A DNA stretch of 20,934 nt from a virus. The stretch spans positions 1 through 20,934 of the IMG/VR virus record IMGVR_UViG_3300042301_002631; one strand, written 5' to 3'. Position 1 is the first letter of the stretch; the number at the start of each line of letters is the position of its first letter. Below the pieces are notes generated by a model, which worked only from the letters and a program-made list of their open reading frames with translations, was not told where the DNA came from and ran no database searches. Made by a program: the position numbers and the translations under genes. Shown piece by piece: positions 3,892 through 20,368 of the stretch.

Positions 3892-4569
3892 ATGGAAAAT
3901 AAACAAACACTATGGATATTTGGAGATTCTTTTTCTACTCCATTTAATGATAACACATTAGGTACTTGGGATGGAGATTATTGTAAATGGAAAGGATATG
4001 TTCCTAAATACTTTGGTGATATTATAGCAAAAGAATTAGAAGTAAATATACAACACTTTGGATATGGTGGCTCGGATAACGATACTATATTTGAAAGTAT
4101 AATAAAACAAGCTCCTAAAATTAATAAAGGAGATTTAGTTATCATTGGTTGGTCCTCCATAGGTAGATTTAGATTAGTAAATAGGGAAAATAAATTCCAA
4201 ACCGTTATACCTAGTTTTATTGATAAGTCATTGACCTGGTTTGATACCATTTCTAAATCTACAATAGAAGAGATATTAGTAAATAGAGATCATTATTTGT
4301 ATAAAAAAGAATTATATACAAAACTAGAGTTTTTAAATTTTTTATTTAATGATATGAAGTTAATACAATGGACTCCATTTAATTATGATGGAACTAAGAT
4401 ATTAGGATTTAAAGATATAAATACTATAATGATAGAAACTAATGGAGAATTAAAGGATGGACACTATTCCGAAATTGGACATATAGAGGTTTCTAAAAAG
4501 TTTATCACTATGTTTAATGATGATAAATTGAGAAATGATTCTAATAGATTATATATGCACTTAATCTAA
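3892..4569 (+). CDS. SGNH/GDSL-family hydrolase (paralogue 1)
   Basis: 225 residues with the SGNH blocks in order: block I FGDSFS (nucleophile Ser13), block II GYGGSDND (57-64), block III region VIIGWSS (83-89), and the C-terminal DGHYSEIGH (189-197) carrying the Asp/His pair. Such enzymes hydrolyse or transfer esters, often O-acetyl groups of sugars; substrate here is unknown. There is no signal peptide, so it acts in the cytoplasm or in the virion. The protein ends in RLYMHLI, one of the ten related C-terminal tails in this window, although separated from the main cluster by 6 kb. It lies 1 base after a glycosyltransferase-like gene, which suits a shared glycan target. Confidence 0.8.
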   Translation: MENKQTLWIFGDSFSTPFNDNTLGTWDGDYCKWKGYVPKYFGDIIAKELEVNIQHFGYGGSDNDTIFESIIKQAPKINKGDLVIIGWSSIGRFRLVNRENKFQTVIPSFIDKSLTWFDTISKSTIEEILVNRDHYLYKKELYTKLEFLNFLFNDMKLIQWTPFNYDGTKILGFKDINTIMIETNGELKDGHYSEIGHIEVSKKFITMFNDDKLRNDSNRLYMHLI

Positions 4570-8940: not shown

Positions 8941-9225
8941 ATGAATAAAATAAGAGAAATAATAGGTGCATGGGTAATATCATTTAATCCTTCGCCTGAA
9001 CAAAAAGAATTAGCAGAAAAACGATATGAGATATGTTTAGGATGTGAACATTATGGAAAAAAGAGACGAATTACACAAGATGAATATTGTAAACAATGTT
9101 TATGTTCTATTCAAAAAAAAGTATTTACAGAAAAAACAAAAGAATCATGTCCATTAAATAAATGGTCTGACATAGATAGTACATATATAGACACTATAAA
9201 TAAAAAATCAAAATCAATAATTTAG
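8941..9225 (+). CDS. Small Cys-cluster (zinc-ribbon-like) protein
   Basis: 94 residues. Six Cys lie in the middle: CLGC (about 33-36), CKQCLC (about 50-55) and a later C-P-L-N-K-W (about residue 71). The pattern, with a helix EKRYEICLGCEHYGKK before it, matches small phage proteins with a zinc- or iron-binding knuckle. The C-terminal 20 residues are Lys/Ser/Asp-rich and end KKSKSII, the same kind of tail as on the SGNH, oxygenase, sulfotransferase and radical SAM proteins; no gene overlaps this stop codon. It may be a metal-bearing partner of those enzymes, which is inference from the tail only. Confidence 0.65.
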   Translation: MNKIREIIGAWVISFNPSPEQKELAEKRYEICLGCEHYGKKRRITQDEYCKQCLCSIQKKVFTEKTKESCPLNKWSDIDSTYIDTINKKSKSII

Positions 9226-9271: not shown

Positions 9272-10798
9272 ATGAAGGCACTTATACTTGGAACCGATTT
9301 CTTAAAAGATTCGGAAGGAAACTTAAAAATAATTGAAACAAATACCAATGTTGATGTTCATAATCAAATTACAGAAGAACTTGATTGGGTTACATTTAAA
9401 CAATTTTTAATAGATAATTCTATTAATAATTTACATTTCATTTACACAGAGGGTAATTTCATTATAAATGAGAATATAGTTGATCGTAAAAATCCTGAAT
9501 TTCCAAAGACTTCTTTAAAAGATAAAATGTCGGAAATCATGGAGGAGTTAAACGGAACATTCCAAATCCATATGCTTCCGAACGGTTCTGTTACCGTTCC
9601 ACTTATTGAGGATAATGATAATACTTTAATAATTAGAACATCGTATGATGCTACCGCAATTGTAGATGAAGAATATACTAAAGATAAGGTTAATTTTCAT
9701 AGATTGATATCTAATGAAACATATTCTACAAATTTTTATTATAGTTCATCTACTGATACAGAATTAAATATTGATAGACTAACCGATTTACATACAACAA
9801 CCGGAAACGCTCCCAATTATATTGTAAAAACAAGATTACCACATAATGGGTATAATGTATATCCAAAATTTTACAAAATAGAATCTTTAGAAGATTTAGC
9901 AACATTGAAAAATTCGGTTACCGATTTGGAATTTATTGAAGAATATCATCTAAATTCTGAAAATTTTGTAAATGAGAAAATTGGGGTAATTAGAAGTTTA
10001 GATATTTTATATGGTGGTAATTTAAGTTGTTTACATTTGGGCTCATATACGATGACTGCCGGTATTAAAAATAATCAATTTGAAACCACATATGATGAAA
10101 CTGGTTTAATGAATGCAGAAGGTAGAATTTTATGGATGACTAAGAATACAGATAGTATGTTATATTCAAAAAATTATATATTAGATGATGATACACCATT
10201 GTTATATCCTGATAATGTACTAAAATCACCAAATGAAATTTTGGTAGGAGACACAATAAAAACTATCAAATTTGATTGGATTCCTGAAGATGAGGGTACA
10301 ATTGATAACCCAACATATCAGCCAAATGTTAACTCAGGTAGTTACAACACAGATTTAACAACATTCACAACCGGGTCAACTGAGGTGGTACATATAAGTG
10401 ATACAATCAGAAATACTGTAATGATTAGAGTTACATTAGAAAATGGTATAGTATATGAAGATTTACCAACATCTGTTATGTATATTGAAGAACATGATAC
10501 ATTAAGAACTACTTTTTCAGATACAAATAGATTTAGAGTAAATGACTCAATTGTATTTTATGATAGTAATAATACACTTATTAAATCTAAAATTACAAAT
10601 TTAGAAATTGTTTACGTTAATAGAAAAGTTTATGATTTAAACGTAGAACCAAGTGATATATATTTGAGTTTAGCCGATTCTACATTAGGATTATTTTTTG
10701 TACAACACAACGCATGTTCTGCATTTTGTTATGGTGGATGCTTCCCCGCATACTATTGTGGTGGTTGTCCAAACTGTGAACAAGGATTTAAACTATAA
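9272..10798 (+). CDS. ATP-grasp-like enzyme fused to degenerate Hint domain
   Basis: 508 residues. The first part has ATP-grasp features in permuted order: D9 with GNLKIIETNTN (metal-binding Asp/Glu/Asn, 16-26), then YIVKTR (K186), GYNVYPKFYKIESLEDLA (193-210) and FIEEYH (221-226). Residues about 295-480 look like a Hint (intein-like) domain: ILVGDTIKTI, VMIRVTLENG, VYDLNVE, and the terminal LFFVQHN with His479-Asn480. The block A Cys and block B His are not evident, so self-splicing is doubtful, though Asn cyclisation/cleavage could persist. After the HN comes a 28-residue tail with six Cys (482, 486, 490, 496, 499, 502). ATP-grasp ligases join carboxylates to amines; substrate unknown. Both domain calls are by eye. 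Confidence 0.6.
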   Translation: MKALILGTDFLKDSEGNLKIIETNTNVDVHNQITEELDWVTFKQFLIDNSINNLHFIYTEGNFIINENIVDRKNPEFPKTSLKDKMSEIMEELNGTFQIHMLPNGSVTVPLIEDNDNTLIIRTSYDATAIVDEEYTKDKVNFHRLISNETYSTNFYYSSSTDTELNIDRLTDLHTTTGNAPNYIVKTRLPHNGYNVYPKFYKIESLEDLATLKNSVTDLEFIEEYHLNSENFVNEKIGVIRSLDILYGGNLSCLHLGSYTMTAGIKNNQFETTYDETGLMNAEGRILWMTKNTDSMLYSKNYILDDDTPLLYPDNVLKSPNEILVGDTIKTIKFDWIPEDEGTIDNPTYQPNVNSGSYNTDLTTFTTGSTEVVHISDTIRNTVMIRVTLENGIVYEDLPTSVMYIEEHDTLRTTFSDTNRFRVNDSIVFYDSNNTLIKSKITNLEIVYVNRKVYDLNVEPSDIYLSLADSTLGLFFVQHNACSAFCYGGCFPAYYCGGCPNCEQGFKL

Positions 10799-10946: not shown

Positions 10947-11771
10947 ATGAAACTATTTACCTTTGGTGATAGTTGGACGGAAGGTGTGGGTGGAAATCTA
11001 ACCGAAGAATATGTTACGGATATACCAGAAGAAAGAACAATAATACGACAAAAATATTGTTGGCCAAAACACTTATCAGAGTTATTGAAGTGTGAAGTGC
11101 AAAATTATGGAGTGGGTGCTTTTTCAAATAATACAATATTTAATTCAATCTGTCACCAATTAAAAAATGAAATCATCACTAAAGATGATTTTGTTGTTAT
11201 TATGTGGAGTTCATCTTTGAGAGACAATTTACCATTTTTCCCAAACGAAGATTCTTTTCATATCTGGGGGGAGCGATATAAAAGTAAACAACATCTAATT
11301 AAATATATTTTTGATGGTATTACTAGTAATAATATAAACTATAATAGAGCAGAAAAAGATTTTAGAGAATATTATATAACTAATTTGTTTAGTGATTCCT
11401 ACTATAATATTATAAATCAAAACTATATATTACATTTACAATTTATATTTAAACAAATGGGAATACAATATCTTTTTTGTGATGCATTTGATAATATGAT
11501 TGGTAAAACTGTAATTAGTGAAATTGATAATAGTAATTTAATTGATAATAGTAGATATTGGGGATTCAAAGAAAAAACATTTGCAGACTTTTTGATTGAT
11601 TTAAAAAGGAGAGATGTTTGGGAAGATAATAATTATTGGAGTCAATCGACATCTGGTAAACACCCAAGTAATAATGGATATCAGTTAATTGCGGAAGAAT
11701 TATATAAATTTATATTAAATTCAAATTTACTGAAAAACGTTATGTGTAAAGATAAAAATTATTTAATATGA
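10947..11771 (+). CDS. SGNH/GDSL-family hydrolase (paralogue 2)
   Basis: 274 residues: block I FTFGDSWTEG (Ser9 nucleophile), block II NYGVGAFSNNTI (about 52-63), block III region VVIMWSSSLRDN, and C-terminal SGKHPSNNGYQLIAEELY carrying the catalytic His. Longer than paralogue 1 by about 50 residues in the middle. First gene of a seven-gene run of modification enzymes; its stop overlaps the next start by 4 bases (ATGA). The end is KDKNYLI, one of the shared Ile/Leu tails. Probable ester hydrolase or acyltransferase on a sugar or lipid; no signal peptide. Confidence 0.8.
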   Translation: MKLFTFGDSWTEGVGGNLTEEYVTDIPEERTIIRQKYCWPKHLSELLKCEVQNYGVGAFSNNTIFNSICHQLKNEIITKDDFVVIMWSSSLRDNLPFFPNEDSFHIWGERYKSKQHLIKYIFDGITSNNINYNRAEKDFREYYITNLFSDSYYNIINQNYILHLQFIFKQMGIQYLFCDAFDNMIGKTVISEIDNSNLIDNSRYWGFKEKTFADFLIDLKRRDVWEDNNYWSQSTSGKHPSNNGYQLIAEELYKFILNSNLLKNVMCKDKNYLI

Positions 11772-12316
11772 TGGAATTTTCTATAAACAATTTTTTTTCA
11801 AAAGAAGAATGTAAATCTATTATAGAAATTGCCGATGCCATTGGTGTTAAATTTTCATATAATCCAAATGAAGTATGGGATTGTAAACGAATTTATGATG
11901 ACAAATTCAAAGAAAATATTTTAAATAAACTAAAAACGAATTACCAAAATAATAATTTTAAATTGTGGTTTGATTTGAATGAATTTAAAATAAATGATGT
12001 TAATATTAGTTTGACCAAATATTATGATAATAGATGGTTAGATTTACATTTAGATAGGATGTCTCAATTAACAACAGTTATAGTCCTTTCCGATGAATTT
12101 GATGACGGTAGATTTGTATTATCTCCCAATAATGGTGATATTAATACAGCCGAAAAATATAATTTGCAAATTGGAGATGGTATTTCGTTTGATGGTAGTA
12201 AAGTATATCATGGTGTATTACCTGTTCATACAGGTATAAGATATGCTTTAAATATATGGATGACAAATACCGATTTTGAATATAAACCTTTAAAAATCAA
12301 TAAAAGCATAATATAA
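11768..12316 (+). CDS. 2OG-Fe(II) oxygenase, prolyl-hydroxylase type
   Basis: 182 residues, the size of minimal P4H-like dioxygenases. N-terminal FFSKEECKSIIEIA (9-22) is the usual helix; the iron triad is His94-x-Asp96 (LHLDRMSQ) and His148 (YHGVLPV), and Arg158 (GIRYALNIWM) fits the 2-oxoglutarate carboxylate. Such enzymes hydroxylate proteins, sugars, lipids or nucleobases using 2OG and O2. Two adjacent ATGs (11768, 11771) could both serve as start. The protein ends KINKSII; its stop does not overlap the next gene (9-base gap), so the tail is not forced by a start codon. Confidence 0.8.
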   Translation: MMEFSINNFFSKEECKSIIEIADAIGVKFSYNPNEVWDCKRIYDDKFKENILNKLKTNYQNNNFKLWFDLNEFKINDVNISLTKYYDNRWLDLHLDRMSQLTTVIVLSDEFDDGRFVLSPNNGDINTAEKYNLQIGDGISFDGSKVYHGVLPVHTGIRYALNIWMTNTDFEYKPLKINKSII

Positions 12317-12325
12317 AATATCACA

Positions 12326-12949
12326 ATGAAACCAAACATTTATATATGTGGAGATAGTTTTGTAGATTGGGATTTACCCGAAGTACATTGGACAGATTAT
12401 TTATCTAATCATTATAATGTTATTAAATTAGGAAAGTTTGGTTCGGATAATCATTCTATAATTTATCAAACGGGAAATATTCCAAACTATATAGATGGTG
12501 ATAGACTTATAATTGTATTTACGGCACCTGGTAGATTTCCAAGAAGATATTTTGGTGAACGTGATATAAATCATAATATAAAATATTTAAATTGGGAATG
12601 GTATAAAGATAAATCTTTTGCAAAAAAACTATTAGATTTAAGAATATCAGAAACACAAAATTGGTTAGATGGAAATAGAGATAATGAAATATTATTTATT
12701 AAAAAATTAAAATATTTTTATGAAAATTATGAACCAATATTTGTAACATGGAATGATGATTTTTATGAAAAAACAAAAGAGTTTGTAGAATTAATAAAAG
12801 TAACTTCTATATCAGATGAAGGTGGTGACCCGATAGATTGGCATCCTGGACGGGTTGGGTGTTATGATTTTTATCTTAAACTACATAAATTTCTAAACAT
12901 AGAAGAATCAATTATAGAATTTGAAAATAAAAAAAATAAACTTATATGA
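12326..12949 (+). CDS. SGNH/GDSL-family hydrolase (paralogue 3)
   Basis: 207 residues: ICGDSFVDW (Ser11), LGKFGSDNHSII (block II Gly region), LIIVFTAPGRF (block III region, Asn not obvious), and DWHPGRVGCYDFYLKLHKFL with the Asp-x-His pair. The shortest of the four SGNH proteins. It lies between two 2OG oxygenases and overlaps the next by 4 bases. The end is KKNKLI, matching the shared tail. The missing canonical block III Asn may mean altered catalysis; the family call itself is confident. Confidence 0.75.
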   Translation: MKPNIYICGDSFVDWDLPEVHWTDYLSNHYNVIKLGKFGSDNHSIIYQTGNIPNYIDGDRLIIVFTAPGRFPRRYFGERDINHNIKYLNWEWYKDKSFAKKLLDLRISETQNWLDGNRDNEILFIKKLKYFYENYEPIFVTWNDDFYEKTKEFVELIKVTSISDEGGDPIDWHPGRVGCYDFYLKLHKFLNIEESIIEFENKKNKLI

Positions 12950-13464
12950 AATTATCAATAGAAGATTTGATTTTTTTAAAATCCGAATTAAGTGTTACTA
13001 GAATAATGAATGAGGAAGACTTGGCGTATATAAAAGCATCTCACCCTCAATTATATTTTGCAACCCATCTTAAAAAAGATGAAGGGGTCTCTCTTTTTCC
13101 AAATAATAGTTGGGTTTATACTTTGGAAAATAAAAATTTAAATGAATTTATTTGTAATAAATTTGAAGAACCTATTGATAATTTATACATAATACATAGA
13201 TTAATATATGGTGAAAATGGTTATGCTAAAAAACATAAAGATAGATTTACAACACATAAAACAATTAGTATTTTATTATCATCCGATTTTACCGGTGGGG
13301 AAATGTATATAAATGATGAAGATGTGTCATTAACAAATGAAGGAGATTATGTTGTATTTAATGGTGGGAATGAATCACATGAAGTAAAAAAGATAATTAG
13401 TGGGGAGCGAGATGTATTGATAATATGGTTTTCCAAAAAGAAAGCAAAATTTAGTATTATATGA
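12946..13464 (+). CDS. 2OG-Fe(II) oxygenase (second)
   Basis: 172 residues. Iron ligands His97-x-Asp99 (KKHKDRFTTH), His145 (ESHEVKKI) and 2OG-binding Arg155 (SGERDVLIIWF). The GGEMYI after the second strand and YVVFNGG before the distal His are typical of this fold. Closer in the distal motif (HEV..I..GER..L.WF) to the third oxygenase at 15187 than to the first. Starts and stops overlap its neighbours by 4 bases each, so translation is coupled. Ends AKFSII, the shared tail. Confidence 0.8.
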   Translation: MKLSIEDLIFLKSELSVTRIMNEEDLAYIKASHPQLYFATHLKKDEGVSLFPNNSWVYTLENKNLNEFICNKFEEPIDNLYIIHRLIYGENGYAKKHKDRFTTHKTISILLSSDFTGGEMYINDEDVSLTNEGDYVVFNGGNESHEVKKIISGERDVLIIWFSKKKAKFSII

Positions 13465-14123
13465 GAATTGCAATAGTGTGTAATGGTAGGAGTGGTTCCA
13501 CATCAACGTTTTATTATTTAAAGTGTTGTTTAGCTAGAGAACGTAAAAAATATGATTCTTTCTTTGAACCATTTAATTTTATAAATCCAGATAGAGAGGA
13601 TACATACAACCAACTAAAAACAATTGATGAAATAATAAATAAAAAAAACATATTAATAAAAACATTTATAGATAGTGATAATTACCCATATGAATCTTTT
13701 AAAAGTGTAGAAGATTATTGGGAATGGTTTTATTCATTTTTTGATAAAATAATAGTATTAGAAAGAAAAAATAAAAGATTACAAGCCGAATCACTGGCCT
13801 ATCATATTAGAATATCTAAAAATAAAACACCTTTACAAACTTGGCATACACAAAAATATTATGAATTAACAGAGGATGATGAGGATGCTGTAATAAAACT
13901 AACACATCATTTAGAATCAGAATCATTAGTGTTAAAATTTATTTCAGATAAAGGGTATCCACTATTTTATTATGAGGATATATTTGTTAATAAAGATATT
14001 GAAACGATAAAACGTTTAAACGAATATTGTGAAATAGCATATAGTCAAATATGTATTGATGAGTGGATAAATTCTCCATATAAAAAAGTAAGAATAGAAG
14101 AAAAGTCAACTAAATTAATATAA
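13461..14123 (+). CDS. Sulfotransferase-like protein
   Basis: 220 residues. N-terminal strand and P-loop-like motif IAIVCNGRSGSTSTFYYL (4-20) is the 5'-phosphosulfate loop of PAPS-dependent sulfotransferases; IIVLERKNKRLQAESLAY (97-114) supplies the 3'-phosphate-binding Arg102 and Ser111; LFYYEDIF (168-175) matches the conserved YED region of Stf0-like enzymes. It would transfer sulfate from PAPS to a sugar, lipid or protein hydroxyl, possibly one made by the neighbouring oxygenases. Overlaps upstream gene by 4 bases and downstream by 1. Ends KSTKLI. Confidence 0.7.
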   Translation: MRIAIVCNGRSGSTSTFYYLKCCLARERKKYDSFFEPFNFINPDREDTYNQLKTIDEIINKKNILIKTFIDSDNYPYESFKSVEDYWEWFYSFFDKIIVLERKNKRLQAESLAYHIRISKNKTPLQTWHTQKYYELTEDDEDAVIKLTHHLESESLVLKFISDKGYPLFYYEDIFVNKDIETIKRLNEYCEIAYSQICIDEWINSPYKKVRIEEKSTKLI

Positions 14124-15187
14124 TGATAGATTTAAAACAATATGTTTGTACGGTTCCGTTTGAGGCATTAGAAATACATGAAAATAAAAATTTTATGTGT
14201 TGTGCAAGTTGGTTAAAAAAAGAATTACCCAATGGGGTTCCCATAAAAGAATTATGGAATTCAGATGAAGCAATTGAAATACGAAAATCTGTAATGGATG
14301 GTTCTTATCGTTATTGTGATAAAACACAATGTCCATTTTTAGCTAGATTAATATCATTAAATAAAAGTATTTCCGGGCCAGTTATCCACATAGATAATTT
14401 GAGTGATGAAATGAAAACAAATTACGATAGACAAACTGGTATAATTCCAAATGGACCTAAAATAATTCAAATGTCATTCGATAGAACTTGTAATTATAAA
14501 TGTCCATCATGTAGGGTTAATATGATTGTTGCAAATAGTGATAAAATAAAAAGTGTAAATCTTACAATAGAAGAAATAGAAAATGCATACTCCGATTCAA
14601 TTGAAACAATTTATTGTTCTGGAACAGCTGATCCATTTGCATCTGTTTCATATAGAAATTTTTTAAGAAATTTTAATCCAAAAAAATATCCAAATTTAAA
14701 ATCAATCCATCTACATACAAACGCCAGTTTGTGGAATGAAGAAATGTGGGATAGTATGCCAAATATACATAAATATGTTCACAGTTGTGAAATTAGTATT
14801 GATGCTGGTACTCAATATACTTACGAAAATGTAACAAGGTTGGGAGGCAATTGGGATAATCTGATCTCAAATTTAAATTTTATTTCAACTATAAAATCTT
14901 TACATAGTGTTAAATGTTCTTTTGTCGCCCAACAATCAAATTATAATGAAATGGAAACATTTTTAAATTTAATATATTCTATATTCAAAAATAAAACTAA
15001 AGTCTTTTTTGGTAGGATAACAAATTGGGGAACATTTAGTGATGGTCAATTTAAATTAATTGATGTTGGTAATGATACACATCCAGAACATAAATTATTT
15101 TTAAAACAATTTAAAAAAGTTGCAACCAATCCATATGTTTTTCATAATATGTATGAATTAATTGATATGAAAAAAACATTACTATAA
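14123..15187 (+). CDS. Radical SAM protein with N-terminal Cys-rich domain
   Basis: 354 residues. The radical SAM cluster motif is Cys123-x3-Cys127-x2-Cys130 (FDRTCNYKCPSCRVN), followed by the usual partial TIM-barrel (YCSGTADPFAS as the GGEP-like region at about 166, LHTNASLW, CEISIDAGT). Before it lies a Cys-rich region (9, 26, 27, 65, 70) with LWNSDEAIEIRKSVMDG, which resembles a SPASM/twitch auxiliary-cluster domain placed N-terminally rather than C-terminally. Such enzymes modify peptides or sugars through radical chemistry. It overlaps both neighbours by 1 base (TAATG) and ends DMKKTLL, a shared tail. Confidence 0.75.
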   Translation: MIDLKQYVCTVPFEALEIHENKNFMCCASWLKKELPNGVPIKELWNSDEAIEIRKSVMDGSYRYCDKTQCPFLARLISLNKSISGPVIHIDNLSDEMKTNYDRQTGIIPNGPKIIQMSFDRTCNYKCPSCRVNMIVANSDKIKSVNLTIEEIENAYSDSIETIYCSGTADPFASVSYRNFLRNFNPKKYPNLKSIHLHTNASLWNEEMWDSMPNIHKYVHSCEISIDAGTQYTYENVTRLGGNWDNLISNLNFISTIKSLHSVKCSFVAQQSNYNEMETFLNLIYSIFKNKTKVFFGRITNWGTFSDGQFKLIDVGNDTHPEHKLFLKQFKKVATNPYVFHNMYELIDMKKTLL

Positions 15188-15684
15188 TGGTGATTACACA
15201 AAATGTTTTATTTACAAAATTAGAATGTGATTCTATAATTTGGCAAAATACAGATGTAACAAATTGGAATAAAAATGATAGAAAATATAAATCAATTTTA
15301 TTAGAGTATTCAGATGATACTGAATGGATCTTTTTAAAATTGAAAAATTTTGTTGAAGAATCAACAAATATAAAAATTACTAATTTAAAAAAGGTAATAC
15401 ATTTTCATAAATTTAATGAGATGGATTGGTTTGATAAACATAATGATGATAAAGATAATAGAATTTATGCAGTTGGTGTTTTGTTAAATAATGACTTTAA
15501 AGGTGGTGATTTTAAATTATATAATCCAGATGAAATAATATTAGATAAAGTTATTGGTAACACTTATACATTTGATGTAAGAATTGAACACGAAATAACA
15601 CCTATACTTAAAGGAGAGCGATATTCATTACTTTGGTTTTTACAAAAAGAACATATTAAATTTAATACAAATAAATTATTATAA
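15187..15684 (+). CDS. 2OG-Fe(II) oxygenase (third)
   Basis: 165 residues, last gene of the enzyme run. Iron ligands His85-x-Asp87 (DKHNDDKDNR) and His135 (RIEHEITPI); Arg145 (KGERYSLLWFLQ) for 2-oxoglutarate. Strand VGVLLNNDFKGGDFKLY between them is typical. Only 165 residues, so no extra domains. Ends NTNKLL before TAA with no gene overlapping; a promoter-containing gap follows, so the run probably ends here. Could hydroxylate a protein side chain, sugar or lipid. Confidence 0.8.
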   Translation: MVITQNVLFTKLECDSIIWQNTDVTNWNKNDRKYKSILLEYSDDTEWIFLKLKNFVEESTNIKITNLKKVIHFHKFNEMDWFDKHNDDKDNRIYAVGVLLNNDFKGGDFKLYNPDEIILDKVIGNTYTFDVRIEHEITPILKGERYSLLWFLQKEHIKFNTNKLL

Positions 15685-16426: not shown

Positions 16427-16726
16427 ATGATAACAATGCCACAAACACCTATTACGGATTACTCATTTAAAAAGTGGGGAGCTATAAAGATAGAAGAAAC
16501 GGATGAAATTGAACCATATTATTATTGGATTTTACCAATACCAATTGATGAGAATATACCCGATAGACCTACCTTAATATCTACTACGAATGATGAGTGG
16601 AAGATAATGGAAATTAAAAAAGGTCAATATTTGGTAACACTATTTGATACTTTACCAATGTTAGAAACAGAAGAAGAAATTGAACTTTTATATAAAATAT
16701 TAACTAAAGAAAATTTAACGAAATGA
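16427..16726 (+). CDS. Unknown acidic 99-residue protein
   Basis: Two in-frame starts are possible: ATG 16427 and ATG 16436. Because the consensus promoter ends at 16422, RNA probably begins close to 16427-16431, which favours leaderless translation from 16427 or a very short leader with the start at 16436. The product has Pro- and Tyr-rich segments (EPYYYWILPIPIDENIPDRP) and a C-terminal acidic helix (EEEIELLYKILTKE). No family recognised. Overlaps the methyltransferase start by 4 bases, so probably an accessory partner of it by position only. Confidence 0.6.
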   Translation: MITMPQTPITDYSFKKWGAIKIEETDEIEPYYYWILPIPIDENIPDRPTLISTTNDEWKIMEIKKGQYLVTLFDTLPMLETEEEIELLYKILTKENLTK

Positions 16727-17364
16727 TTTACAACGAAGATTGTTTAGATACACTTAATCGTAACTTAGAATACGATTACATTATAACATCACCACCTGAT
16801 TTTGATGAGATTGGTGCAGATACTAAAAACATACAACCCTATATTTCTTTCTTAAAAGAAAGATTTAGTTTATTTAATCCTAAAAATAATGTAGTAACTA
16901 TATTTGTTTCGGATAGAAAGGCAGAAGGAACGGTCATTCAAAAACATAATATTATTTGTAGTATTATGAGTGATAATGGTTGGGTACTTAAATCACAAAA
17001 AATATGGGTAAAAAAGGAAGATACAATTGATATGTTCAGACATGGATATACATTTATTTTAACGTTTGGTAGAAATAATTCAAAACACCCATTATTACCC
17101 GATGTATTTAGTGAAAAATTTGTACCTGCTACACCTGAATATACTTATAATTTTTCACCTAATATTGTAAAACAATTTATTGAAAAATATACAAATAAAA
17201 ATGAAATTGTGTTTGACCCGTTTATGGGTAGTGGAACTACGGCAATTGTATGTGTAGAACATAATAGAAAATATGTAGGTAGTGAAATTATTGAGGTAAC
17301 CTGTAAGATTGCAGAAAATAGAATAAGTAAAATAAATAACGCAGATAAATTTTTTAAACTATAA
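16723..17364 (+). CDS. DNA methyltransferase, beta-class order, variant motif IV
   Basis: 213 residues. Motif IV-like YIITSPPDFDEIG (19-31) precedes motif I FDPFMGSGTTAIVC (164-177), the beta-class order of N4-C/N6-A methyltransferases; NRKYVGSEI follows as motif II. The catalytic tetrad is SPPD, not SPP[YFW]: the base-stacking aromatic is replaced by Asp with Phe next to it. That may alter target or activity. The target-recognition region between the motifs is short (about 130 residues). No restriction partner is nearby, so it is an orphan enzyme likely protecting phage DNA. Starts within an ATGA overlap with the 99-residue gene. Confidence 0.75.
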   Translation: MIYNEDCLDTLNRNLEYDYIITSPPDFDEIGADTKNIQPYISFLKERFSLFNPKNNVVTIFVSDRKAEGTVIQKHNIICSIMSDNGWVLKSQKIWVKKEDTIDMFRHGYTFILTFGRNNSKHPLLPDVFSEKFVPATPEYTYNFSPNIVKQFIEKYTNKNEIVFDPFMGSGTTAIVCVEHNRKYVGSEIIEVTCKIAENRISKINNADKFFKL

Positions 17365-18588: not shown

Positions 18589-19491
18589 ATGGCAGAATAC
18601 TCACAAATATTACCTCTTAGAACCGATATAAAGGTAGTAGACCAATTTGGATTCTTACCCCTATCAATTAATAGACCTACCAAAGAATCGAAGCTAAAGT
18701 GGCACGATGCATACCTTAATGATGGTTTAGATGAACAACGTCGTAGTGACACATCCGAATATTTACCTGGTTATACATTCTCCGAATTCCACGCTGGATT
18801 GGCAGAACAAGTATATAGGTTTTGGAGTATGCAAGGTAGTAAGATAGTTGACCCATTTGCGGGTAGAGTAACAAGAGGATTTGTTGCAACTAAATTAGGT
18901 AGAGATTATACTGGATTCGAAATTTCACCAAAGACATGGGAAAGAACACATAAACATTTTGATGCACATAATGTTCATCCACACATAATTAATAGTGATG
19001 GAACTTTAATGGAGGAAATTTCAGATAAAACCGCAGATTTAGTTTTTACTTGTCCACCTTACTTTAATTTAGAAAAATACGAATCAGTTCCTGGTCAATT
19101 AAGTGATGAGAATAGATATGAATCATTTATGAGTAAGATTGATGTTTGTATTTCAAATTGTTATAGAGTTCTTAAAAGTGGAGCATTTGCATGTTGGGTT
19201 GTAGGTGATTTAAGGACTGGTGGTGAGTTTCAAAACTTTCATGGTGATGTAATCAATTCGTTTAAGAAGCATGGCTTTAATCAGCACGATATAGTTATAC
19301 TAGAAAATATCTCACCATTTGCAGCATTACAAATTGGAAAAACCGCAGCTAAACGATACACATCAAAAGTACATGAATACCTTTTAGTATTCCGAAAACC
19401 AGGTGATTATGAAATACCAAAATATTGTTCACCGGATGTAATGGAGCAAGAAAACAAATTAGCAGAATTCTTTAATTATGATAGAAAATAA
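18589..19491 (+). CDS. DNA methyltransferase, motif I before IV
   Basis: 300 residues. Motif I IVDPFAGRVTRGFVATKLG (86-104) with GFEISP as motif II, then motif IV LVFTCPPYFNLEKY (151-164) and a long C-terminal half ending in a strand (VHEYLLVFRKPGDY). The N-terminal 85 residues (RTDIKVVDQFGFLPLSINRP) are typical of phage and ParB-linked N6-A/N4-C methylases. The order I-IV differs from the enzyme at 16723, so the two are not recent duplicates and probably have different targets. Own promoter at 18525-18555. Orphan; no restriction gene nearby. The stop overlaps the next gene by 14 bases. Confidence 0.75.
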   Translation: MAEYSQILPLRTDIKVVDQFGFLPLSINRPTKESKLKWHDAYLNDGLDEQRRSDTSEYLPGYTFSEFHAGLAEQVYRFWSMQGSKIVDPFAGRVTRGFVATKLGRDYTGFEISPKTWERTHKHFDAHNVHPHIINSDGTLMEEISDKTADLVFTCPPYFNLEKYESVPGQLSDENRYESFMSKIDVCISNCYRVLKSGAFACWVVGDLRTGGEFQNFHGDVINSFKKHGFNQHDIVILENISPFAALQIGKTAAKRYTSKVHEYLLVFRKPGDYEIPKYCSPDVMEQENKLAEFFNYDRK

Positions 19492-20368
19492 ATTTCATAC
19501 AATTCATTTTACAGGATGTTCTTTTACCGAAGGTGGTGGATTTGAAGATGGAAAACAACAATTAAAATCCGAATATAAAAAGAAATATGGATTTTTATAC
19601 AAAAATGAAAAGGATGTTTCATATCCTTCACTTTTACAATCAAAACTTAATTTAAAGATTATAAACGATGCTAAGAGTGGTAGTGGTATAGAAAGAACTA
19701 TTCGTAAAATATGGGAATATATAAGAAAGCATAAATTAGAGCATGTTAAAAAAACTTTATTTATATTAGAAATGGCAGAAGCTGTTTCTAGATTAGAAGT
19801 GTTCTCAAATAAATACAATAAATATTTAGTAGCAAATGTAGTATACGATTATAAAACAGGTAAAATCACCGATACACAAACTACATTAAATTGGATATAC
19901 GGACCACAAATGGATGAAGAATATAGAGATAATACACGAGAAGTTATTAGAGAATATTCAACATTGTTTGTAAATCCATATGAATACGATAAGAAAATAC
20001 AAAATGAAATATTAGGATTATTTAGTTTTTTTAAGATGCATGATATACATTTCTATTATAGTGGAAATGTTAGTTTCGTTGATAATTTTGCAAAAAGAAT
20101 ATACAATGATATTGAGGAAACTAATCGATTAAACTTAATAATAAATGGAAAACCATATTTTAATTTTTATGAATTAGCACATTCAAATTTAATAAGAATA
20201 TCGGATGAAGTTGGATTAGATATATCTACTGATGGACATCCTGGTGTTCAGGCACATCAAATGTGGGCAGAAGGAATTTACAATTTTTTACAAAATAAGT
20301 ATTTAGATGATACTTATGAATTAGATTATAGACAAAACAAAATTATTTCAACAAAAAATATAATATGA
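19478..20368 (+). CDS. SGNH/GDSL-like protein (paralogue 4), GCSF variant
   Basis: 296 residues, the longest of the four. Block I is FTGCSFTEGGG (12-22), with Cys14 in place of the usual Asp before the nucleophile Ser15; block II NDAKSGSGIERT; TLFILEMAEAVSRLEVF as block III region; and ISTDGHPGVQAHQMWAEGIYNFL with the Asp-x-His pair near the C-terminus. GCS variants are seen in phage relatives and may still be active. Overlaps the methyltransferase by 14 bases and the next gene by 4. The end is ISTKNII, the shared tail, 4 kb from the main cluster. Confidence 0.7.
   Translation: MIENKFHTIHFTGCSFTEGGGFEDGKQQLKSEYKKKYGFLYKNEKDVSYPSLLQSKLNLKIINDAKSGSGIERTIRKIWEYIRKHKLEHVKKTLFILEMAEAVSRLEVFSNKYNKYLVANVVYDYKTGKITDTQTTLNWIYGPQMDEEYRDNTREVIREYSTLFVNPYEYDKKIQNEILGLFSFFKMHDIHFYYSGNVSFVDNFAKRIYNDIEETNRLNLIINGKPYFNFYELAHSNLIRISDEVGLDISTDGHPGVQAHQMWAEGIYNFLQNKYLDDTYELDYRQNKIISTKNII

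Follow-up and report, generated by a model that had tools for sequence, protein, structure and literature searches.

A phage protein family combining a predicted permuted ATP-grasp enzyme, a one-sided Hint domain and a cysteine-rich tail as a possible RiPP-like precursor

The open reading frame P0001 (9272-10798, 508 aa) was found in a 20,934-nt virus record of IMG/VR (IMGVR_UViG_3300042301_002631), the whole of which is called the window hereafter; P0001, its parts and the tagged window genes given below lie on the plus strand. According to structural models the protein is composed of three parts, namely a permuted ATP-grasp enzyme, a Hint/intein fold and a 28-residue tail with six cysteines. 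Its family is virus-only and belongs to large T4-like phages, a group that is widespread but uncultured. We give an even chance to the reading that P0001 is a RiPP-like precursor, in which enzyme and Hint domain form the leader of a Cys-rich core, the core is modified by enzymes addressed through a common tag, and cyclisation of an asparagine releases it.

Results

Searched as a single protein against Pfam, PHROGs, NCBIfam, PADLOC and the PDB, P0001 returned no significant match, and since no library model matched by sequence, the assignment of its domains required structure. The AlphaFold2 (AF2) model of P0001, built with 78 relatives, has a mean pLDDT of 83.9 and a pTM of 0.81; all structures discussed here are predictions, and the open reading frames were called mechanically. 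The sequence details from which the original prediction started, the LFFVQHN string and the Cys spacing, are all present in the reading frame, and the structure prediction which it had proposed as a check returned both a Hint and an ATP-grasp fold (AF2, Foldseek, VIA).

Relatives were collected from IMG/VR by patterns in the N-terminal enzyme part (ATP-grasp motifs), because the single-protein library searches had found nothing significant. The scans reported 233-260 encoding stretches each, the best 80 of each were taken, and 145 unique proteins were analysed; with this selection of the best 80, very divergent forms may be missing. No family member was found in GTDB contigs, nor any relative in 50,697 phage records searched with three divergent queries. 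The closest cultivated capsids are those of a Microcystis phage (55%) and of Flavobacterium phages (51%). At locus L361 (G001:C1:95809-97233), a gp23-type capsid match contains one internal TAA, possibly due to an intron, a frameshift or an assembly error. The 211-kb IMG/VR contig 3300042892_005961 carries two copies of the family gene (L292 and L332), about 38 kb apart.

The first part of P0001, residues 1-298 (9272..10165), is a predicted permuted ATP-grasp of the glutathione synthetase/GspS/YgiC type. Modelled by itself it reaches a pLDDT of 88.7 (AF2), and in VIA residues 1-294 match YgiC (7uk8, 94-378) with a Z of 10.1, yeast glutathione synthase (1m0w, 122-484) with a Z of 10.0, and GspS with a Z of 9.0; at an rmsd of 3.9-4.8 Å, the likeness to YgiC and the yeast enzyme is at fold level only. 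All three alignments start at model residue 1 or 2, follow the chain order and end at 292-294; the "permuted order" noticed in P0001 is therefore genuine and is the one seen in GspS and in glutathione synthetases of the eukaryotic type, long described rather than new (known since 1999, Polekhina et al., as reported in PMC2845819). The ATP-grasp domain, which had been placed in the N-terminal 250 residues, is thus borne out by the structural match, with its extent corrected to about residue 294.

Eight residues (D9, E22, N24, R122, D126, D132, K186 and R241) are invariant across 144 family sequences, and K139 is kept in 140 of them. In the GspS alignment chain residue 311 pairs with model residue 2, thus bringing D9, E22 and N24 near the metal ligands; by this offset they would presumably correspond to D318, E330 and N332, which we take to be the ligands of GspS. 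Glutathione synthetase, GspS (the glutathionylspermidine synthetase of E. coli) and YgiC/YjfC are C-N ligases, and P0001 shares their fold and order (Z 9-10), the D..ExN metal-site motif close to the N-terminus and an Arg and a Lys, all of these residues being invariant in the family. Unlike them, its enzyme part measures about 300 residues (370-600 in the known enzymes), has no significant sequence match and is joined to a Hint domain and a Cys tail. Profiles of the ATP-grasp part in native and permuted order found no sequence match in Pfam or the PDB, and re-ordering it canonically before the search brought no gain (best 1ulz, E 1). None of the R2K Pfam models matched P0001, and the R2K paper describes no permutation.

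The second part, residues 300-480 (10169..10711), is a Hint/intein-like domain without Cys1 and block B. Residues 300-483 match hedgehog 1at0 (Foldseek, E 1e-7) and the BIL2 domain 6y75 (VIA Z 15.7, 2.3 Å, 143 residues), in agreement with the earlier reading of LFFVQHN as the end of a Hint domain, and a family profile matches the KlbA intein 2jmz by sequence (E 1.2e-5); nanobody rows in the PDB search with this profile were due to chance. QHN occupies residues 478-480, and LFFVQHN ends at His479-Asn480 (10706..10711), the predicted site of Asn cyclisation, with the putative scissile bond after base 10711. All 145 unique members, some as distant as about 25% identity, keep His-Asn (a script counted 144; its motif did not cover L359, where THN occupies that place). 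This is the reverse of homologues losing HN and keeping the rest, the outcome that the original prediction had named as evidence against itself. Neither this conservation nor that of the tail cysteines is a search artefact, because the scans for members used ATP-grasp motifs.

The absence of a Cys nucleophile and of a block B TxxH, predicted for P0001, extends to every member analysed. P0001 has Ile303 at the Cys1 position and no TxxH at the expected block B; among 144 sequences the Cys1 position holds H (71), L (49), I (17), V (6) or K (1), never C or S, and the aligned block B positions have no conserved Thr or His. F:4 is also lost (by eye, alignment A2). Where inteins have the block F His (F:13), 132 of the 144 sequences carry either D (92) or H (40). 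In inteins, the C-terminal step depends on His-G6, Asn-G7 and F:13, and the N-terminal step on Cys1, B:7, B:10 and F:4 (PMC4031507); as judged from aligned residues, the family Hint keeps the first set and has lost the second. With inteins and type A BIL domains it shares the Hint fold (Z up to 15.7), the C-terminal His-Asn, the block F residue and the dispensability of a +1 nucleophile; unlike them, it lacks Cys1/Ser1, the block B Thr/His and F:4, and splicing is therefore impossible and C-terminal cleavage the most that it could perform. Behind the Asn480 position the relatives carry S, G, A, P, V, Y or other residues, and there is thus no requirement for a splicing nucleophile. The dN/dS of the Hint (0.14) equals that of the ATP-grasp (0.14), which means that the domain is not decaying and rules it out as a relic: it is "degenerate", as it had been called, in its N-terminal chemistry, and purifying selection on it is as strong as on the enzyme.

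The third part, residues 481-508 (10712..10795), is the proposed core peptide. Its sequence, ACSAFCYGGCFPAYYCGGCPNCEQGFKL, is 28 residues long and follows C-x3-C-x3-C-x5-C-x2-C-x2-C exactly, as originally described; the final 27 residues of P0001 have a pLDDT below 50 (AF2) and are predicted to be disordered. Of 143 relatives, 97 have a tail with six cysteines and 35 one with eight, an even number (6 or 8) in 132. Cys makes up 21% of the tail residues, Gly 13%, and Tyr, Pro and Trp 8-9% each. When relatives are compared in 43 independent pairs, identity is 87% in the body and 62% in the tail without its cysteines, the tail being the less conserved in 40 pairs, and 271 of 278 tail cysteines are kept; the dN/dS of non-Cys tail codons is 0.43. 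In these comparisons the tail behaves like a scaffold of cysteines from which variable loops extend. A scan for the six-Cys pattern beyond the family returned frame artefacts and unrelated reading frames only.

In five relatives (L035, L036, L218, L219 and L220) a second complete Hint stands directly behind the Cys peptide and carries Cys1, TxGHP and HN; in L035 and L036 it matches Pfam Intein_splicing (E 1e-10 to 1e-12). The peptide thus lies exactly between the potential cuts of a first Hint able to cut only at its back and a second able to cut at its front. SICLOPPS is an engineered arrangement of intein C, peptide and intein N, and the five relatives resemble it in placing a peptide behind a C-cleaving Hint and in front of an N-cleaving one. 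Unlike SICLOPPS, they are natural, employ two separate full-size domains and have Pro at +1, and therefore cyclisation is not implied. The same phages encode other Hint proteins, long reading frames with complete-looking TxxHP and HNKG (L214 7851-9509, L211 6878-8635, L213 5853-7109), two of them resembling LamG by eye; they are of the more usual phage Hint type.

The genes around P0001 form an island of enzymes, including the radical SAM protein and oxygenases that had been noted beside it. Upstream lies a 94-aa Cys protein (8941..9225, phrog_13558, ending SII). Downstream follow an SGNH/GDSL-like protein (10947..11771, ending YLI; Pfam DUF6071 E 3e-7, Lipase_GDSL E 2e-4), a 2OG-Fe(II) oxygenase (11768..12316, ending SII; phrog_61 E 1e-14), a 207-aa protein with a GDSF start and no family match, SGNH-like by eye only (12326..12949, ending KLI), a second 2OG-Fe(II) oxygenase (12946..13464, ending SII; PF13640 E 1.6e-6), a P-loop sulfotransferase-like protein, so assigned by its RSGST motif only and without Pfam match (13461..14123, ending KLI), a radical SAM protein (14123..15187, ending TLL; PF04055 E 1e-4, and NF033640 N_Twi_rSAM E 3.6e-14, below the cut-off of that model), and a protein joined by BLAST to the 2OG oxygenase cluster (cluster 0), with no Pfam match of its own (15187..15684, ending KLL). 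Two proteins of the SGNH cluster (cluster 6) are encoded further away, at 3892..4569 (HLI) and 19478..20368 (NII). Probable DNA methyltransferase genes (16723-17364 and 18589-19491, PPY-type motifs by eye) lie outside the island.

Within about 6 kb of the family gene, 2OG-Fe(II) oxygenases occur in 70 of 79 loci (136 genes), the 94-aa Cys protein, often tagged itself (cluster 3), in 65, SGNH proteins in 41, Trp halogenases in 40 and radical SAM proteins in 25; two sulfotransferase-like families, assigned from the P-loop motif only, are found in 67 and 57, the latter being that of the window gene. A variable core and adjoining modifying enzymes, by which a RiPP precursor is recognised, are both found in the P0001 family. 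Neither a transporter nor a separate protease was identified among the neighbours, which counts against the RiPP-like reading.

Mutually unrelated island enzymes end alike. The C-terminus [K/N][S/T/K][L/I][I/L]-COOH is found in 424 of 469 unique proteins, as against 3 of 133 control neighbours, and in its longer form reads roughly K-x-x-K-[S/T]-[L/I]-[I/L]-COOH, the stretch before it being Lys-rich. In three large contigs, its enrichment near the family gene is significant (Fisher p 9e-11, 1e-5 and 5e-9), and the tag is also seen in the most divergent clade. As 196 of 217 island genes separated from the next gene by more than 3 nt carry the tag, and as it is encoded by several synonymous codons, it is a feature of the proteins; a chance origin from overlapping start and stop codons is ruled out on the same grounds. 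In Flavobacterium phage immuto, which has a related capsid, 9 of 207 genes end in [LI][LI] and 1 of 207 in the strict form, which likewise speaks against chance. In Pelagibacter phage HTVC008M neither the halogenase nor the oxygenases carry the tag, and P0001 is likewise without it. Tagged genes of the window are those at 3892-4569 and 8941-9225, within 10947-15684 and at 19478-20368, and the tag is seen at all relative loci. No description of it was found in literature searches that were not aimed specifically at such a tag, and it is apparently undescribed.

Among the relatives, L144 encodes a 413-aa Trp-halogenase-type protein (L144:1314-2552; PF04820 E 1e-87, PrnA E 1e-54), a phage type shorter than bacterial PrnA, whose best cultivated-phage match is in HTVC008M (35% identity). 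No halogenase was found in the window, and the P0001 tail has no Trp. A halogenase is present in 51 of 143 loci, and all 51 tails encoded there contain Trp; Trp occurs in 52 and is missing in 40 of the 92 tails with no halogenase nearby, an association which is suggestive only, because phylogeny ties the clades together and the flanks cover 5-6 kb only, and this confounding counts against the RiPP-like reading.

Discussion

A RiPP-like pathway is the simplest account of the folds, the residues, the selection, the neighbours and the tag taken together. In such a pathway, an active-looking enzyme and the Hint would serve as leader, the core (481-508) would be presented as a flexible tail of P0001, and the neighbouring enzymes would be recruited or grouped through the common C-terminal tag K/N-S/T/K-L/I-I/L-COOH before modifying it. 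Modifications may include hydroxylation by the 2OG-Fe(II) enzymes, probably sulfation, and radical SAM chemistry, with halogenation of Trp in the relatives that bear a halogenase. The Hint, devoid of its N-terminal nucleophile, would cyclise Asn480 with the help of His479 and the block F residue, and the cut after Asn480 would release the peptide. The ATP-grasp may use ATP to form an amide bond; its most likely target is the peptide, one end of which would be capped or joined. We infer the cleavage, every modification, the substrate of the ligase and the role of the product; the release of a modified peptide, already suggested in the original prediction, is now better supported by the neighbours, the evolution of the tail and the five double-Hint relatives. 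More tentatively, and with less than even confidence, the family may represent a new RiPP-type class of uncultured T4-like phages, with a peptide ligase and a one-sided intein as leader, a core rich in Cys, Trp and Tyr that this intein frees, a second intein in some members for excision at both ends and a [K/N][S/T][L/I][I/L] docking tag addressing all modifiers.

Flavin halogenation of Trp in ribosomal peptides has precedent (PMC10858898, PMC10286304). The proteusin, lanthipeptide and chlorolassin pathways with brominases or chlorinases share with P0001 an encoded, fast-varying C-terminal core and a combination of halogenase, 2OG oxygenase and radical SAM partners. Unlike these, P0001 has a 480-aa enzyme and Hint as leader, with no separate protease identified, its system is encoded by T4-like phages, and the enzymes have a C-terminal tag in common.

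Three other explanations have to be weighed. The protein could be a component of the virion, a tail or head decoration displaying its Cys-rich tip as an adhesin, with a Hint serving maturation and island enzymes which decorate the tip or the fibres, and with no free peptide. L060 and L359 carry an extra C-terminal module, which in L060 matches a family of virion structural proteins (phrog_6121, E 4e-6); it is a chaperone-like module of such proteins, which fits better with a displayed structural protein and counts against a free peptide. Fibre-like genes (cluster 14) near the family gene at some loci, structural-looking domains on the other Hint proteins of these phages and a fast-varying tail, suited to a host-contact surface, point the same way. 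The module occurs in only 2 of 145 members, however, fibre repeats or a trimerisation region are absent elsewhere, and full conservation of the ATP-grasp active site is difficult to explain for a decoration protein; we regard a virion role as rather unlikely. That ligation is the main function, with the enzyme acting on its own tail or Hint end, which is cleaved and ligated onto a host or phage protein or a small amine with no free diffusible product, agrees with the GspS family providing the best structural matches, with invariant active-site residues, and with the ability of GspS-type ATP-grasps to join peptide carboxylates to amines in amide bonds. By itself it leaves the diverse modifying enzymes and the fast variation of the tail unexplained, and we consider it improbable.

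Slightly less probable again is an inactive Hint kept as a linker, with a tail that is a structural metal or disulfide knot and an island that modifies polysaccharides. The loss of Cys1, block B and F:4 agrees with it, and the Asn with its penultimate His could in principle be retained for folding, which counts against the RiPP-like reading; glycosyltransferases and SGNH proteins are also among the neighbours. Its precedent is the cyanophage islands of oxygenases and halogenases, interpreted as pathways for polysaccharides, small metabolites or secondary metabolites (PMC7824862), an analogy that likewise counts against a RiPP-like pathway and stays a rival to it. The S-SSM6a cluster (PMC7824862, a review of jumbo phages) and the viral halogenase VirX1 (PMC8407142) do share a phage Trp-halogenase-type enzyme and several 2OG oxygenases with the P0001 islands; unlike these, the S-SSM6a cluster has been described with carbamoyl transferases and without a Hint/ATP-grasp precursor. 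Against a mere linker stand HN in 145 of 145 members at a Hint dN/dS of 0.14, the second complete Hint placed precisely across the tail in five relatives, and the presence of Trp in all tails of halogenase-bearing loci.

Conclusions

A tag common to unrelated enzymes is a candidate addressing signal, and one that can be tested. The one-sided Hints and their double-Hint relatives could become tools for peptide release. A review lists no natural product for the phage flavin halogenases akin to VirX1, and the RiPP-like reading offers a concrete hypothesis on their substrate. If it is true, lytic-type phages would possess a RiPP-like pathway in which a self-releasing enzyme leader replaces the protease.
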